Of a stretch of 41,560 nucleotides of DNA, positions 16,447-24,945 are shown piece after piece. The notes under the pieces were generated by a model. The model saw nothing but the letters and a program-made list of their open reading frames with translations, did no database searches and was not told where the DNA came from. The stretch's first letter is position 1. Each line of letters begins with the position of its first letter. The stretch lies in contig JAUXSI010000024.1 of NCBI GenBank assembly GCA_030679985.1, positions 1 through 41,560 on the forward strand, read 5' to 3'. A program made the translations under genes and the position numbers. This DNA comes from Candidatus Moraniibacteriota bacterium (GTDB lineage: Bacteria; Patescibacteriota; Minisyncoccia; Moranbacterales; UBA2206).

Positions 16447-17907
16447 ATGGAAAAGCCTCAACAGCCAATTTTTTATAAACGACCCATTTTCCTCCTAATT
16501 TTAATTTTAGCCGCTTTCTTCCTGAAAGGCGTTTTTTTGGCCGCTGTTTTCCCGATCTTCAGCGGGCAAGATGAGGCCCGGCACTATAGCGCCATCCAAT
16601 ATTTAGCCGAACCTACGGATAAGACGTGGGATCTTAAGGAATTGCCTGAGCGCGATGATGATAACCTTGAGACATACGGATTTTCAGAAGAAGTGCAAAA
16701 AACCGCCACCGCCACCGATACACATATCTTACGCGGGGAAATTTTCAATACCATCGGATTTTCCGACGGTTCGGATGGCAAAAATGAAGAAGTGATCCAT
16801 TCGATGCCCTGGAAGCCGTACAATTTCAACCTCAAGCCGGATAATGTGGGCGGCGGAAAGCTATACCACCCAGCTGCCGCCTTGATTGAAAAAGCCCTGG
16901 TTGATCAAGACATCCTCGTCCGGTTTTATTCCCTCAGGATCATCTCGGTCCTGCTCGGGACGCTGGCGGTCTTGTTTTTCTATCTCACCGCTAAAACGAT
17001 AGGCTTTTCTGAAAAAACCAGTCTGCTCCTCACGGCCATCGTCTCCTTTCAGCCTAAATTTTCCATGTACGGAGCCAGCATAACCTATGATGCCCTCCTC
17101 ATACCGGCCTTTTTTCTCTTCACGCTCGCCGGAGCGATGGCATTTAAAAACGGGTTGGATTGGAAAAATTCCACACTTCTTATCATTTCTGCCACATTGG
17201 GCTTCTTGGCGAAATTGACGGGGTTCGTCCTGATTGCGGTCCTTGTCTCGATTTTTATTTATTTCATCTACCAAAAAATAAAAACGAGAAACAAAAATAT
17301 CCGATATATAACATACATCCTGTGCGCGTCATCCTTCCTTTTTCTATTCAGCTATATAAAAGATTATTTGCCCGGTGCCGAACAATCCCTGGCGCAACTA
17401 GCCGGTTCATTGGGCAAATATTTGGATAAAAGCTTGACCTTCGGAAGATTCGGACTCTCCGCACGGACATATTGGGGAGCGCTCGGATGGACCGATGGAC
17501 ACATCATGGACGGCATCGTTGAAGCTATCAAATATATCGAGATCATTTCCCTGGCGGGACTTGGAATTTTTTTCTTTTCAAAAAAAGAAAGGCCGGCATA
17601 TCTGCCGGAAAAAAAATATATCGCTTTCTTCGTATTTATGGTAATCGCGCTCCAATTGGAGATCCGCGTGGCTGATTGGAGCATATTCAACCAATCAGGA
17701 GCGCTCGGCCTCGGAACGCCGGGGCGATATTTCCTACCCAACCTTAGCGCCCATATCATTTTGATATTTACCGGCCTTGGCGCGCTTTTCGCATATTTCA
17801 AACGCGGGCATTATTTTGAAAAATCATTGGTCATCGGAGCCATTTCCATGCTGTATTTTTCCACATACCTGATTTTCAACGCGATCATTTTGAGATACTA
17901 TCTGTAA
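16447..17907 (+). CDS. Polytopic membrane protein, GT-C/DUF2142-like
   Basis: A 486-residue protein with about ten membrane helices (first at 15-38). The first outside loop carries FSGQDEARHYSAIQYLAE, an acidic motif placed as in GT-C transferases and DUF2142 proteins that take sugars from polyprenyl carriers. A long outside loop (about 55-150) follows. The sequence RYFLPNLSAHIIL near the end resembles the GRYFLP segment shared by many such proteins. The reaction is unknown; transfer of a sugar to an exported glycan or protein is the best guess. The ATG sits six bases after a TATAAT box. A bitopic protein gene follows after 31 bases. Confidence 0.62.
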   Translation: MEKPQQPIFYKRPIFLLILILAAFFLKGVFLAAVFPIFSGQDEARHYSAIQYLAEPTDKTWDLKELPERDDDNLETYGFSEEVQKTATATDTHILRGEIFNTIGFSDGSDGKNEEVIHSMPWKPYNFNLKPDNVGGGKLYHPAAALIEKALVDQDILVRFYSLRIISVLLGTLAVLFFYLTAKTIGFSEKTSLLLTAIVSFQPKFSMYGASITYDALLIPAFFLFTLAGAMAFKNGLDWKNSTLLIISATLGFLAKLTGFVLIAVLVSIFIYFIYQKIKTRNKNIRYITYILCASSFLFLFSYIKDYLPGAEQSLAQLAGSLGKYLDKSLTFGRFGLSARTYWGALGWTDGHIMDGIVEAIKYIEIISLAGLGIFFFSKKERPAYLPEKKYIAFFVFMVIALQLEIRVADWSIFNQSGALGLGTPGRYFLPNLSAHIILIFTGLGALFAYFKRGHYFEKSLVIGAISMLYFSTYLIFNAIILRYYL

Positions 17908-18799: not shown

Positions 18800-19360
18800 T
18801 TAAATTTTATTGAAAAAATGCTTTTTTAAGCTATCTTCATTATCGATTTTCAAAGCCGTAATCACGCGCACATATTTTTCCGCAGAATACAAGGATGCCA
18901 GTTCCAAGATCTGACTTTCAAAAGGATGCGGCGAGACAAAAACGCTGTGTTGCAATTTTAGAAACTCAAGCTCACGGAGATGATCACGTAAAATATCGCG
19001 GAACATCCGATCTTTTTCAGGAATATCGAAAATCACGATTCTCCATTTCCCATCCCACTTTTTTGGCAGCTTGAATTTTATAGTCGAGCCCAACAAGCTT
19101 AACTTTTTTGCCTGCTCTTCGCCCTTTTTCGTAAGCACTAATTTAAAAGAACCATCAGGAAAGATTTCCTTTTCAATCAGTTTTTCCTTTGACAATCGGG
19201 AGATGGAACGTTTAAAACTGAATTGATTGGTCTTCCCCCACTCATTCCGTATTTTGTGAAACGTTTTGAAATATTGCCGCGGGGAAGAAGACAAACCCAA
19301 GGCCACGCCTCCCAAAAGCGCGACCATTATTTTCTTTTGTACCGGACCGAATTTATACAT
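18800..19360 (-). CDS. HTH protein with PaaX/Cas2-like C-terminal domain
   Basis: A 186-residue protein. Residues about 1-85 look like a winged helix-turn-helix (FSFKRSISRLSKEKLIEKE, then FKLVLTKKGEEQAKKL as the wing). Residues about 95-186 have the ferredoxin-like pattern of Cas2 and the PaaX C-terminal domain: WDGKWRIVIFDIPEKDRMFRDI, then LRELEFLKLQHSVFVSPHPF. In CPR genomes such fusions are often labelled Cas2, but there is no array and no other cas gene here. A DNA-binding regulator, or a nuclease of a mobile or toxin-like unit, fits better. One palindrome lies 127 bases upstream of its start and two lie at its 3' end, possible targets. Several frames of its leader are A/T-rich and no clear promoter was chosen. 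Confidence 0.8.
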   Translation of the reverse strand: MYKFGPVQKKIMVALLGGVALGLSSSPRQYFKTFHKIRNEWGKTNQFSFKRSISRLSKEKLIEKEIFPDGSFKLVLTKKGEEQAKKLSLLGSTIKFKLPKKWDGKWRIVIFDIPEKDRMFRDILRDHLRELEFLKLQHSVFVSPHPFESQILELASLYSAEKYVRVITALKIDNEDSLKKHFFNKI

Positions 19361-20125: not shown

Positions 20126-23100
20126 TCAATAATTTATTTTAACACTTCCTCCTGCAGTAATCAAAGCCGGAATAACCAGTCCGGACAATTTTTGTCTGAC
20201 CAGCCGGGCATCGACTTCATCATCCTCATCACGATCATCCAGTTCTTGCGGTCTCTGCATCAGGATGGTGATGTCTTTCTTCGGCCGATAGTGCGATTCG
20301 ATCCATCCATCCGGCGTCTTGGCACTGGCCGCCAATATCATATATTTCTTTTTCCTGCTATCATATTTCCATTTATATCCGAGGCTCGTGCCGGATAAAT
20401 TATGCACTACCCCGTCATAAGCCAGTGAAGAAATGGAAACGTCGATGCGCCTGTTTACATCTCTTTTCTTTTCCAGAACAATTGTCGTTGTATGCCCCGC
20501 CTCATCAGTCAAAACCGCCGTTGCGATGTTTTCTTTTTTATGATCCTTTTCTTTGTTTTTCCACAACCAAGCAAAGATCATATCCTTTAGCTTTTGTTTC
20601 GCTGAGTTGTCGCTATAATTCCCCTCTTCCGCCACCGATACCGACACGTTTTGGGACAAATTATCCATACCGGAGATATCCAATTTTTGCGCGACCGGAT
20701 CGAATCGCAATCCGGCTTCCGGCGCGGTCTTGTCGATCTTGATGGTTTCCGTTTTTGTTTCCTCTTTGTTGCCCTGCTTATCGATAGCATAATATTGAAA
20801 CGTCGTGATACCTTCATTAGAAATATTCACTGGCTCAGTATAATCATTCCAATTGGCGCCATTATCCAGAGAATACGATATTTTGCCTACTCCGCTGCCG
20901 CCCTCGTTATCTTTTGCCTTCAATGAAACCGCCGCGTCACCCATATACCAACCATCGTCGCCAGCCGGACCGTCTATGGAAATTTCCGTGGTCGGAGCGG
21001 CCGTATCCAATGTCGCCGCGCCATTCGGAACGGAAGCAATCACATAATCATCCGCTCCGTCGCTATCCATATCCGCCCGCAACGGCAACGCGTCCGCAAT
21101 CCCGGCTTCCGGAATATCCATTTTCACGATCGTATCGGCTGTTGTCGGCAGGTTGGAAAATTCAGCCTGCGTCACGATTTCTTCTCCGGCTTCCGTGGCC
21201 TGGACTTCCGCCAGTTTTAGCGTATATGCACCCAGCGCGTAGCCGTCCATCTCGACGCGGATATGCCTGCCTTTCGGAAAGCCGACATATTTCCGATCCC
21301 CGAATTGGTAATAATAACTGTTCGGGATATTTTCTTCAAAGATCGTCTGTTCTTGGCCGTTTTCATCGATTGTTTTCGGTCCGGTATGCCGGCCGGCATC
21401 GTCATATAGATGGATGTTGAGCGGCGAATATAGCGACATCCTTAAACGAGAACTGGCATCGGCATAATCCTCCGGACGGGATGTGCCGATGTATGGCGGC
21501 AATGACACGCCCAGATCCGCTTTTGTAATTATTTTATCCAACAGATATTTTACGGAATCAACTTCTAAAAGACTTTTATGCTCACGATCAATTTCTAATC
21601 CTTTATTTTGCGACCATAAATCCACCCAATATCTCTTCACCCTCCCATCCGCCGGCAACATCAATGCGCTTGGCGCCACCACCACCCTGTCTCCGTCCAC
21701 CGTGAATTTCGGATCGTACACCGGTTCATATTCACCGCTGGGCGCGCAAGAAGGAATTTTTCCTTCCACCAGATAACATTCCATCGTTTCTTTTTTGGTA
21801 TAATCCACTCCGCTCACCGTATCCAATCCCCAGCCTGCGATTTGGATGGCTTCCACCGAATCCGGCGGCGTCCAACTATCCAGACGCTGATGGATTTCCT
21901 CCGCCTGATCCAGGATATCCTTATTCAAAATATTCTCGCTTTCCACGTCATTTTTTTCCGGCTTCGCTCTCTTATCATCCGAACCTAATAGAAACTTTTT
22001 AAACTCGCTGAAACTGTCTATGTTTTCACCATAAGCATCTTTGAAGATTTCATATCCGGCTTGCTCGGAAAGAAAATTTATGAAAGGTTTTTCCATCCGT
22101 TGGAAATATTTTTCACTCGGCAACAAGCCATACGCGCCCGGCATATTTTCCGATAACGCTCGGGCGTCTTGGCGCGAGATAAGCAACTGCATCGGGGATG
22201 ATCCTTCGTCATACCCATATAATAAAGAAAGTATGGCCAGCGGCGTGCCCATCTGCGGGGTACCGACAAAAATAATTTTATCTACTTTATCAGCCAACCC
22301 CAGCTTTTCCAATTCCAGCATCGCCGCCTTAGCCACCAGTCCGCCATTGGAATGCGCCACGATTGTTACTTTTTTACTTTTGGAATTTTCCGCCAATGCC
22401 TGCAGATCGACTATGACTGATTTTGTGATGTTTTCATACGGCGTTCCGTTTTGCGCGATATCCTCGACATCTTGCCGCCAATCATACGCGAAAGATTCAT
22501 AATCATTGATGGTGCCGTCACTTTTCAACCCAGCTAAATCCGCTAAAAATGTCTTGTAGATATTTCCTCCGATTGGCGATTCTTCCAGGACATCCCGGGT
22601 ATATACGTCATTGATACTTTCCCCGTTTTCATCCAAAGCTAAATCTCCCAGATCGTCGCCGAAATAATTCGGCGGCCAAAGCTGATCTTCCGTTCCCAAT
22701 GATCCTTCTTTATATAACCGGCTGGATTTGATGCCCGGCAAAAAAAGTACATTAGAAAAACAATCTTCCGTGCAAGCCTGATTGGCGTCGAGGATTTCAT
22801 CAGTGATCCGCCAGGCATCCAAATAGAGCTGTCCGACCACCCGGTAGCCTTTTACGATTCCTTGATTTTCATCCTCATCGGTGGTCGGACCGGCCGGATC
22901 CCCGAACCAATCATCCTTCAAATACACCCGCTTGAGGCATCCCTGGTCAACATAATCCTCATCCGTGTTTTCGTCATAGGCCCAGCAGTCCAATTGGGAA
23001 TCGACTGCGGTTTGGTTGGAAAAATTGGAATTGATGACTTCCGCTTGCGCCTCATTTTGCACCAGATTGTCATTTTCATCATAGACATCGTTACCATCCG

Positions 23101-23641
23101 CGTCTTGGACGGGCACATCCGCGATGCTCATTTCTCTAAAACGGCTATTGGCGAATTTGGAGTTTTCAATGTGGATCTTGCCGCCGTTTATTTCAAAAAC
23201 CGGGAACTTCGGCACGAAGTCGCCACCACCGTCCACGGTCGGGATGAAGCCGCCGTTTTCCAAAGTCACATAACGCAAAAAGGAAGACTGATCATTATCA
23301 TTGAAAACCAAACTGAAACCGTCGTCCGGCGAAGTGATGACGACATTCTCCTCGCGCGTCCCGTTTGCGACCAATTTTCCGTCAACCGTTTGGAATCCTG
23401 GCGCGTTGAAGGGCTGATCGGGATTGGCCTGGAAAGTTATCCTGGTCCCCTCCTCGATAGTCAAGGTAGCGCCGCTTTCGATGACGACTGGTTTATCGAA
23501 AACCAGATCAGGAGTCGTTTTGGTCCAGGTCGTATCGGTGTCGATATGTTCGACTTCTTGGGCACTGACGCTTTTGGATGAAAAAATTAAACCGAGGGCC
23601 AGACAGAATACCAGTAATTTGTTTTTATTTGTTTTTGACAT
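20126..23641 (-). CDS. Large secreted LCAT-like alpha/beta hydrolase with Ig-like domains
   Basis: A 1171-residue protein. Residues 1-27 are a signal peptide (hydrophobic LLVFCLALGLIF, then SVSA before QE). Residues about 40-215 have the turn-rich pattern of a right-handed beta helix (SGATLTIEEGTRITF). Residues about 295-705 form an alpha/beta hydrolase of the lecithin:cholesterol acyltransferase/lipase type: LPGIKSSRLY (301-310), YDWRQ (386-390), and AHSNGG (429-434) with nucleophile Ser431. His688 (REHKS) is a likely catalytic histidine. From about 883 an Ig-like, OmpL47-type domain follows (GDAAVSLKAKDNEGGSGVGK). Substrates are probably outside lipids or acyl esters; this is inference. The C-terminal tail from about 980 is basic and unassigned. 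Confidence 0.85.
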   Translation of the reverse strand: MSKTNKNKLLVFCLALGLIFSSKSVSAQEVEHIDTDTTWTKTTPDLVFDKPVVIESGATLTIEEGTRITFQANPDQPFNAPGFQTVDGKLVANGTREENVVITSPDDGFSLVFNDNDQSSFLRYVTLENGGFIPTVDGGGDFVPKFPVFEINGGKIHIENSKFANSRFREMSIADVPVQDADGNDVYDENDNLVQNEAQAEVINSNFSNQTAVDSQLDCWAYDENTDEDYVDQGCLKRVYLKDDWFGDPAGPTTDEDENQGIVKGYRVVGQLYLDAWRITDEILDANQACTEDCFSNVLFLPGIKSSRLYKEGSLGTEDQLWPPNYFGDDLGDLALDENGESINDVYTRDVLEESPIGGNIYKTFLADLAGLKSDGTINDYESFAYDWRQDVEDIAQNGTPYENITKSVIVDLQALAENSKSKKVTIVAHSNGGLVAKAAMLELEKLGLADKVDKIIFVGTPQMGTPLAILSLLYGYDEGSSPMQLLISRQDARALSENMPGAYGLLPSEKYFQRMEKPFINFLSEQAGYEIFKDAYGENIDSFSEFKKFLLGSDDKRAKPEKNDVESENILNKDILDQAEEIHQRLDSWTPPDSVEAIQIAGWGLDTVSGVDYTKKETMECYLVEGKIPSCAPSGEYEPVYDPKFTVDGDRVVVAPSALMLPADGRVKRYWVDLWSQNKGLEIDREHKSLLEVDSVKYLLDKIITKADLGVSLPPYIGTSRPEDYADASSRLRMSLYSPLNIHLYDDAGRHTGPKTIDENGQEQTIFEENIPNSYYYQFGDRKYVGFPKGRHIRVEMDGYALGAYTLKLAEVQATEAGEEIVTQAEFSNLPTTADTIVKMDIPEAGIADALPLRADMDSDGADDYVIASVPNGAATLDTAAPTTEISIDGPAGDDGWYMGDAAVSLKAKDNEGGSGVGKISYSLDNGANWNDYTEPVNISNEGITTFQYYAIDKQGNKEETKTETIKIDKTAPEAGLRFDPVAQKLDISGMDNLSQNVSVSVAEEGNYSDNSAKQKLKDMIFAWLWKNKEKDHKKENIATAVLTDEAGHTTTIVLEKKRDVNRRIDVSISSLAYDGVVHNLSGTSLGYKWKYDSRKKKYMILAASAKTPDGWIESHYRPKKDITILMQRPQELDDRDEDDEVDARLVRQKLSGLVIPALITAGGSVKINY

Positions 23642-23739
23642 TTTTGTTTTCGCAATCCCTCCAAAAAATTTGTCAGGATCGTTTCGTTATTTTGATTAGC
23701 TTTAACTTATTTAAATTTTAACTAATATTTATCTCCAAG

Positions 23740-23765
23740 AAAAAATCGGGGTACATCCCCGATTT
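23740..23765 (-). terminator. Rho-independent terminator of the mini-gene
   Basis: On the minus strand AAATCGGGG, a five-base loop (ATGTA) and CCCCGATTT form a 9-bp stem followed by a T-run (complement of A at 23740-23745). The stop codon of the small open frame overlaps the start of the stem. Confidence 0.88.
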
Positions 23766-23856
23766 ATCGCTTCGCGCAGTAATTTCTAAAAATATCCGGA
23801 TAACCCTCCCAGACACAATACCAGCTCATCATTTTTTTATCTCCGCTATTTTCCAT
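23764..23856 (-). CDS. Stand-alone mini-gene encoding a 22- or 30-residue peptide
   Basis: The open frame runs from ATG 23856 to TAA 23764 (30 codons). An internal ATG at 23832 has GGAG eight bases upstream, so a 22-residue product is the better-supported form; the outer ATG would be leaderless, six bases after the -10 box. The shorter peptide begins MMSWYCVWEGYP and ends NYCAKR: two Trp, three Tyr and two Cys in 22 residues. It has its own promoter and terminator and is isolated by another terminator from the epimerase upstream. I know no matching family. It could be a real small protein, a leader peptide in front of the hydrolase gene (start 23641), or a short RNA that happens to be open. 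Confidence 0.5.
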   Translation of the reverse strand: MENSGDKKMMSWYCVWEGYPDIFRNYCAKR

Positions 23857-23862
23857 ATGCAA

Positions 23863-23891
23863 AGTATAATCGGTAATCCGTTTTTTGACAA
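23863..23891 (-). promoter_or_regulatory. Predicted promoter of the mini-gene
   Basis: On the minus strand TTGTCA (23891-23886), a 17-base spacer and TATACT (23868-23863). Transcription should begin near 23856, giving an RNA of about 115 bases up to the terminator. Confidence 0.65.
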
Positions 23892-23928: not shown

Positions 23929-23963
23929 AAAAAAATCCGCAGGATTTTTATTCCGGCGGATTT
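23929..23963 (-). terminator. Rho-independent terminator after the epimerase gene
   Basis: On the minus strand AAATCCGC (23963-23956) pairs with GCGGATTT (23940-23933), with an inner GGA/TCC pairing in the loop and a run of seven T (complement of A at 23929-23935). It lies 29 bases after the epimerase stop. Confidence 0.88.
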
Positions 23964-23991
23964 ATTTCGCGGCAAAATTTGGATTATGCCA

Positions 23992-24945
23992 TTAAGCGAC
24001 TTTGTAATATTCCTTATACCACTCCACGAAATTCTTGATGCCTTCTTCGATGCGGGTGGTCGGCTTCCAACCGAGCTTCCTGAGCTTGCGGATATCGGCC
24101 ACGGTTGACGGCACGTCGCCCGGTTGCATCGGCAACATTTTTTTCTTGGCTTTCTTACCCAGATTATCTTCCAGCACTTCGATGTAGCGCATCAGGGTTT
24201 CCTCGCGGTCGCCGCCGATGTTCATCACTTCGCATTTGAGGTTGGCGTCGATGACGGTGATGGTGCCGGAAACGATGTCATCCACGTAGGTGAAATTGCG
24301 GCTCATCTTGCCGCGGTTGAAAACGTTGATCGGCGTGCCCTTGGTGATCCCGTCCGCGAAAAGGAACAGGGCCATATCTGGCCGGCCCCACGGACCGTAG
24401 ACGGTGAAATAGCGCAGTCCGGTGGTGTTCAGGCCGTAGATGTGGCTATAGACGTGCGCCAGGAGCTCCGTAGCCTTCTTGGTGGCCGCGTAGGGTGAAA
24501 TCGGCGTATCGACGCTATCGCTCTCGGAAAACGGCTGTTTCTTGTTGTTGCCATAGACCGAAGAAGATGAGGCGTACACGAAATTCTTGATTTTGTATTT
24601 GCGCGACATTTCCAGCAGGTTCAAGGTCCCCTTGATGTTCACATCCTCATAGCCGATCGGATCAAGCAGCGAATTGCGCACGCCGGCCAAAGCCGCCAAA
24701 CTCATCACCTTGTCCAATTTTTCCGTCTTGAAAATCCTTTCCAAAAGTTTGATGTCGCGGATGTCGCCTTTGTACAGCTTGAACTTATAACCCTTGAGAT
24801 ATTTTTTGATGCGGTCCTTTTTCAACTGCGGATCATAATAATCGTTGAAATTGTCGATCATCACCACTTGGTCCCCCCGGTCCATCAACTTTTTGGCCAG
24901 ATTGGAACCGATAAAGCCCGCACCGCCCGTAATGAGTATTTTCAT
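23992..24945 (-). CDS. NAD-dependent epimerase, UDP-glucuronate 4-epimerase-like
   Basis: A 317-residue extended [12 protein letters not shown] (7-15) binds NAD, SSSSVYG (126-132) holds the catalytic serine, and Tyr152 and Lys156 in PYAATKK form the YxxxK pair. DNFNDYYDPQLKK (31-43), AALAGVRNS and YGPWGRPDMALF (183-194) are signatures of bacterial UDP-glucuronate 4-epimerases, which interconvert UDP-glucuronate and UDP-galacturonate. It should provide galacturonate for the glycan and shares its substrate with UXS. A close relative acting on another UDP-sugar cannot be excluded. It lies 45 bases downstream of the DUF4012 gene on the same strand and has its own terminator. Confidence 0.87.
   Translation of the reverse strand: MKILITGGAGFIGSNLAKKLMDRGDQVVMIDNFNDYYDPQLKKDRIKKYLKGYKFKLYKGDIRDIKLLERIFKTEKLDKVMSLAALAGVRNSLLDPIGYEDVNIKGTLNLLEMSRKYKIKNFVYASSSSVYGNNKKQPFSESDSVDTPISPYAATKKATELLAHVYSHIYGLNTTGLRYFTVYGPWGRPDMALFLFADGITKGTPINVFNRGKMSRNFTYVDDIVSGTITVIDANLKCEVMNIGGDREETLMRYIEVLEDNLGKKAKKKMLPMQPGDVPSTVADIRKLRKLGWKPTTRIEEGIKNFVEWYKEYYKVA

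Follow-up and report, generated by a model that had tools for sequence, protein, structure and literature searches.

The gap between an NAD-dependent epimerase gene and the gene of a large secreted protein on contig JAUXSI010000024.1 (GCA_030679985.1, Candidatus Moraniibacteriota) carries on its minus strand an apparent transcription unit so short that the nature of its product is the main question: a small protein, a regulatory leader of the downstream gene, or a small RNA. These options come from a first-pass annotation of the window (the whole 41,560-nucleotide stretch of the contig analyzed here), which had pointed to complete expression signals around a frame of 22–30 codons. Related loci also place the host in Candidatus Moraniibacteriota (Patescibacteria). 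A second copy of the element was found only in a sister species (G001; contig JAUXSK010000004.1, a Candidatus Moraniibacteriota MAG), where it likewise follows the epimerase gene; the epimerases of the two species are 99% identical. The signals named in the first-pass annotation (promoter, ATG, GGAG, ATGATG, overlap of stop and terminator, and flanking terminators) are all present, on the minus strand, and are listed here from 5' to 3' with the neighboring genes.

23992-24945, minus strand: NAD-dependent epimerase gene (Pfam Epimerase), 5' of the element
~23933-23975, minus strand: epimerase intrinsic terminator, with visible stem and T-run; fold -14.4 kcal/mol (G001 homologue, -17.1)
23886-23891, minus strand: -35 hexamer TTGTCA, identical in G001
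23863-23868, minus strand: -10 hexamer TATACT, identical in G001, with a 17-nt spacer to the -35 hexamer
23827-23862, minus strand: conserved 5' block of the transcript, containing the first ATG (23856), GGAG, and ATGATG
23856-23854, minus strand: first ATG, six bases past the -10 hexamer, at the inferred transcription start
23764-23856, minus strand: open frame of 30 codons, MENSGDKKMMSWYCVWEGYPDIFRNYCAKR (22 codons if started at ATG 23832)
23844-23841, minus strand: GGAG, eight bases 5' of ATG 23832-23830
23832-23827, minus strand: ATGATG, second in-frame start, giving 22 codons
23784-23817 (approximate limits), minus strand: internal hairpin GUCUGGG-AGGGUUA-UCCGGAU, then a U-rich stretch, inside the frame
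23766-23764, minus strand: TAA stop, sharing two bases with the 5' end of the terminator stem
23738-23765, minus strand: intrinsic terminator of the element, AAATCGGGG-ATGTA-CCCCGATTTTTTCTT, with a 9-bp stem (23765-23743) that holds 5 GC pairs, then a T-run
23715-23743, minus strand: weak promoter-like site TTTTCT-17-TAAAAT, 3' of the terminator, an 8/12 match in both species
20126-23641, minus strand: gene of a secreted 1171-aa protein with an LCAT/PGAP1-like domain (hereafter the hydrolase), 3' of the element

The TTGTCA-17-TATACT promoter agrees with the consensus at 10 of 12 positions, which makes it the top promoter-like match within the 3.5 kb scanned and the best consensus promoter of the epimerase–hydrolase interval. 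The epimerase terminator was missed by the terminator scan because its stem is interrupted. Beyond the terminator of the element there are about 100 bases before the hydrolase ATG (23641), and the TTTTCT-17-TAAAAT site is a possible separate promoter for the downstream operon. By themselves, the frame and its Shine-Dalgarno (SD) sequence are weak evidence of a gene, because dinucleotide shuffles of the stretch contain an ATG frame of at least 20 codons with an SD in 5% of cases, and without an SD in 25%.

Comparison with the sister species was more informative. The alignment of the two copies is gap-free between the -35 hexamer and a point beyond the terminator, and we took the synonymous divergence of the epimerase genes (pS 0.31, dS 0.40; dN 0.007) as the neutral reference. 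None of the 12 promoter hexamer sites has changed, while the 17-nt spacer between them differs at 6 of its 17 sites. The block that runs from the -10 hexamer to ATGATG has 2 changes in 36 sites (P = 2e-4 at a neutral rate of 0.31), the body of the frame (codons 11–30) has 17 in 60, which is the neutral rate, and the stop and terminator have 2 in 30, both in the loop of an otherwise identical stem (P = 0.0015). The 3' flank has 8 differences, a rate of about 0.20. Between the 5' block and the frame body the difference is significant by Fisher's test (P = 0.007), for two sequences and for region boundaries that were set after the alignment had been inspected. Across 13.6 kb of collinear sequence, only one other intergenic 36-nt stretch, in the upstream region of the epimerase gene, is equally conserved. 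Since promoter, start region, and terminator are unchanged or nearly so while spacer and frame body drift neutrally, they appear to be under selection, and the transcription unit is probably real; the self-contained expression unit proposed in the first-pass annotation is thus supported by the sister species.

The encoded peptide behaves differently. We compared the peptide of the window with that of G001, MENNGDKKMMEWYSVRKSYPDVFAGYYVKR. In both species the 30-codon frame is uninterrupted and has the same length and stop; it stays open in 35% of neutral simulations. The base changes are spread evenly over the three codon positions (7, 7, and 5), and only one changed codon is synonymous. The resulting dN/dS is 0.73 over 30 codons and 1.1 over 22 codons (dN 0.32, dS 0.29), compared with 0.02 for the adjacent epimerase; for the 22-codon frame, the 14 nonsynonymous changes are too many for an omega of 0.3 or less (P <= 0.002) and fit values of 0.7–1. 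The ten N-terminal residues are identical at 9 positions, and after the MM pair 10 of 20 residues are identical against 9.8 expected without selection. Both cysteines (Cys14 and Cys27) and one of the two tryptophans (Trp16) are lost in G001. Because identity equals the neutral expectation, low omega is rejected, and an open frame is 35% likely by chance, there is no evidence of amino-acid constraint: between these two copies, the amino-acid sequence of the peptide shows no sign of selection. The conservation in close relatives that the first-pass annotation had asked for was seen in part, in that open frame and terminator are kept and the peptide sequence shows no constraint. Its proposal of a real small protein finds no support at the sequence level, with half of the 20 residues that follow MM changed and dN/dS near 1. 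Since the unit seems to be transcribed and nothing indicates that the peptide is preserved, a small RNA or a leader is likelier than a conserved small protein.

Translation of the short frame is nonetheless plausible from the start signals of this genome, for which the statistics cover about 150 kb. The 3' end of the 16S rRNA reads ACCTCCTTT, so that the anti-SD is intact, and SD-like 4-mers are most frequent at -12 to -10 among 118 genes sampled; the GGAG of the element is at -12. Such motifs mark a minority of starts, occurring at -18 to -5 in 12 of the 118 and in 7 for the control interval. A few genes look leaderless, with the -10 hexamer six bases before the ATG as in the element. One such start, TATAAT-acattc-ATG, lies at position 16447 of the window (plus strand), and others were seen in sampled contigs of the same genome (G000).

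At the RNA level, all 7 pairs of the internal hairpin are kept in G001, where U-G has become C-G and G-U has become A-U, each by a change on one side. With two sequences, the column-shuffle test of the consensus fold gave P = 0.04 for the core, and the other tests gave 0.13–0.29. The G001 hairpin scores as a terminator-like site, and fold z-scores were -0.8 for the window copy and -3.2 for the G001 copy. Of the three options raised in the first-pass annotation, a small RNA survives best, on these two sequences, and our tentative preference, held with somewhat less than even confidence, is for a small RNA gene, about 115 nt long, that is restricted to the genus, independently transcribed and terminated, and perhaps also translated. 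Such a transcript would start near 23856 from the sigma-70-type promoter and end at the intrinsic terminator near 23738. Its product would act as RNA, in trans or in cis, through the conserved and mostly unpaired 5' segment beside the hairpin and the terminator stem, and this segment would either base-pair with other transcripts or recruit ribosomes; the amino-acid sequence of the peptide would have little or no function. Counting against a small RNA, the conserved 5' block resembles a translation start more than an antisense seed. The fold z-score of only -0.8 for the window copy, the lack of an Rfam match at cut-off, and the failure to find Hfq in the host genome also speak against it.

The element is narrowly distributed. 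It is single-copy in its own genome, the reason for rejecting a mobile or repeated element, and its genus is represented by two species genomes in the collection searched. Beyond G001, it was not found in the family (34 genomes), in the order (131 genomes searched with the protein query, 124 with the RNA model and with the 5' pattern), or among 384 genomes sampled from the class. Scanning viral contigs for the conserved 5' block returned nothing, and the RNA model gave no convincing match downstream of the epimerase gene in other Moraniibacteriota. The only other match at E < 0.01, given by the RNA model in G027 (E = 1.8e-4), reflects no more than an identical terminator that follows a nucleotidyltransferase-like gene. 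Apart from G001, the family-wide blastn search matched short fragments that are AT-rich or terminator/RBS-like. Peptide matches outside the genus (E = 0.01–0.4 in other genera, E = 7 in phages) were set aside as unrelated or chance-level frames. The peptide has no protein-family match, the element contains no tRNA or tmRNA, and the covariance models of Rfam 15 gave no match at the gathering score and sub-threshold matches to unrelated families.

The downstream operon bears on the proposal that the element is a leader of the hydrolase gene. The same hydrolase operon follows the element in both species, but in G001 two small membrane-protein genes of about 95 aa (ATGs at 1698 and 2042) intervene.

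L023:1698-1982, plus strand: ~95-aa membrane-protein gene of G001, first copy
L023:2042-2335, plus strand: ~95-aa membrane-protein gene of G001, second copy

Relatives of these genes occur in L162, L164, and L168, and adjoin the hydrolase gene also in G014, G104, and G118; in the genome of the window the family was not found, and it has no Pfam or NCBIfam match above cut-off. In G104 an epimerase gene again precedes, and a TATACT promoter-like site, read from the sequence, stands directly before the membrane-protein gene. The element is absent from the upstream regions of related operon genes examined in other genera. Because those genera carry the operon without it, a conserved hydrolase-operon leader is disfavored, and the element would be a genus-specific addition and not an ancestral leader. 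The leader proposal is weakened accordingly by the intervening genes and by the other genera, and what survives of it is a leader at the level of the genus, for which start, stop, and terminator are what would be conserved. Classical attenuation by Trp or Cys codons was rejected, since the sensor codons are not kept in G001 and such a mechanism would have no sensor. Overlap of stop and terminator was dropped as evidence of coupling, as terminators 2–19 nt past stops are usual in the host genome.

Weighed against the small RNA, a small protein of 22–30 residues, translated from the leaderless ATG or the SD-preceded ATGATG and evolving rapidly in its C-terminal part under relaxed or diversifying selection, is rather unlikely. 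It would account for the conserved start region, for an SD spaced as is optimal in this genome, for the shared length and stop, and for the near-identity of the first ten residues, but the 20 residues after MM change at the neutral rate, evenly over codon positions, neither Cys nor Trp is kept as a whole, low omega is rejected, and chance alone would leave the frame open in 35% of cases. A cis-acting operon leader is less probable. Here transcription would start at 23856 and usually end at the terminator, translation up to the stop would allow read-through into the hydrolase gene, and the act of translating the frame would matter while the peptide would not. Such a leader would explain how conserved start region, stop, and terminator coexist with a neutral, indel-free frame, and the position of the best promoter and the shared downstream operon fit it as well; the intervening genes of G001, the membrane-protein genes of other genera (several beside the hydrolase gene) that lack the element, and the conserved weak promoter-like site 3' of the terminator speak against it, and no conserved alternative anti-terminator pairing was seen in folds of the two copies.

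A functionless remnant, with the promoter and terminator of a lost gene kept by chance or through recent divergence, is very improbable: it would agree with the confinement to one genus and with frame and hairpin statistics that are each weak, but conservation this patchy within 150 bases is unexpected under uniform neutral drift. We also consider it improbable that the element exemplifies either a translation-only regulatory leader in a patescibacterium, with start, stop, and terminator selected and a drifting peptide, or a peptide whose leader is conserved while its C-terminal part diversifies.

Returning to the small RNA that we favor, the element resembles intergenic small RNA genes in its sigma-70-type promoter, length, mostly unpaired conserved 5' part, hairpin, and Rho-independent terminator, but differs from them in having no Rfam match at cut-off, no known target, no Hfq found in its genome, and an RBS-like 5' part. 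With trp-leader type attenuators it shares a short SD-preceded frame with Trp codons, a stop beside a terminator, and a same-strand gene downstream; in contrast to these, its Trp and Cys codons are not conserved and its downstream gene encodes a secreted LCAT/PGAP1-like protein and is not a biosynthetic operon. Standalone small open reading frames likewise have a promoter, start site, SD, short frame, and terminator, but the amino-acid sequence of the element lacks signs of selection between the two species. Our literature search turned up no studies of small RNAs or small proteins from Moranbacteria. A small transcription unit that is genus-specific and under selection would offer a concrete candidate for RNA-based regulation in a host whose genome is reduced and yielded no Hfq, and the locus illustrates that complete expression signals around a short frame do not necessarily imply a conserved peptide.

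Further features were observed. The ~95-aa multi-TM-like family ('MDSIGLG...WPIINLLL...KNK') adjoins the LCAT/PGAP1-like gene in several Moraniibacteriota, and in L160, L170, and L171 a hairpin, CCTTTCT(C/T)CCGTAAA...TTTACGGG...GAGGAGG, lies about 60 bases 5' of the membrane-protein ATG; it is possibly a cis-regulatory RNA that could sequester the ribosome binding site (GGAGG) of the membrane-protein gene. Elsewhere in the window (18803-19360, minus strand), this Moranbacterium encodes a PaaX-like protein whose central domain is Cas2-like (PF20803, E = 1e-23).
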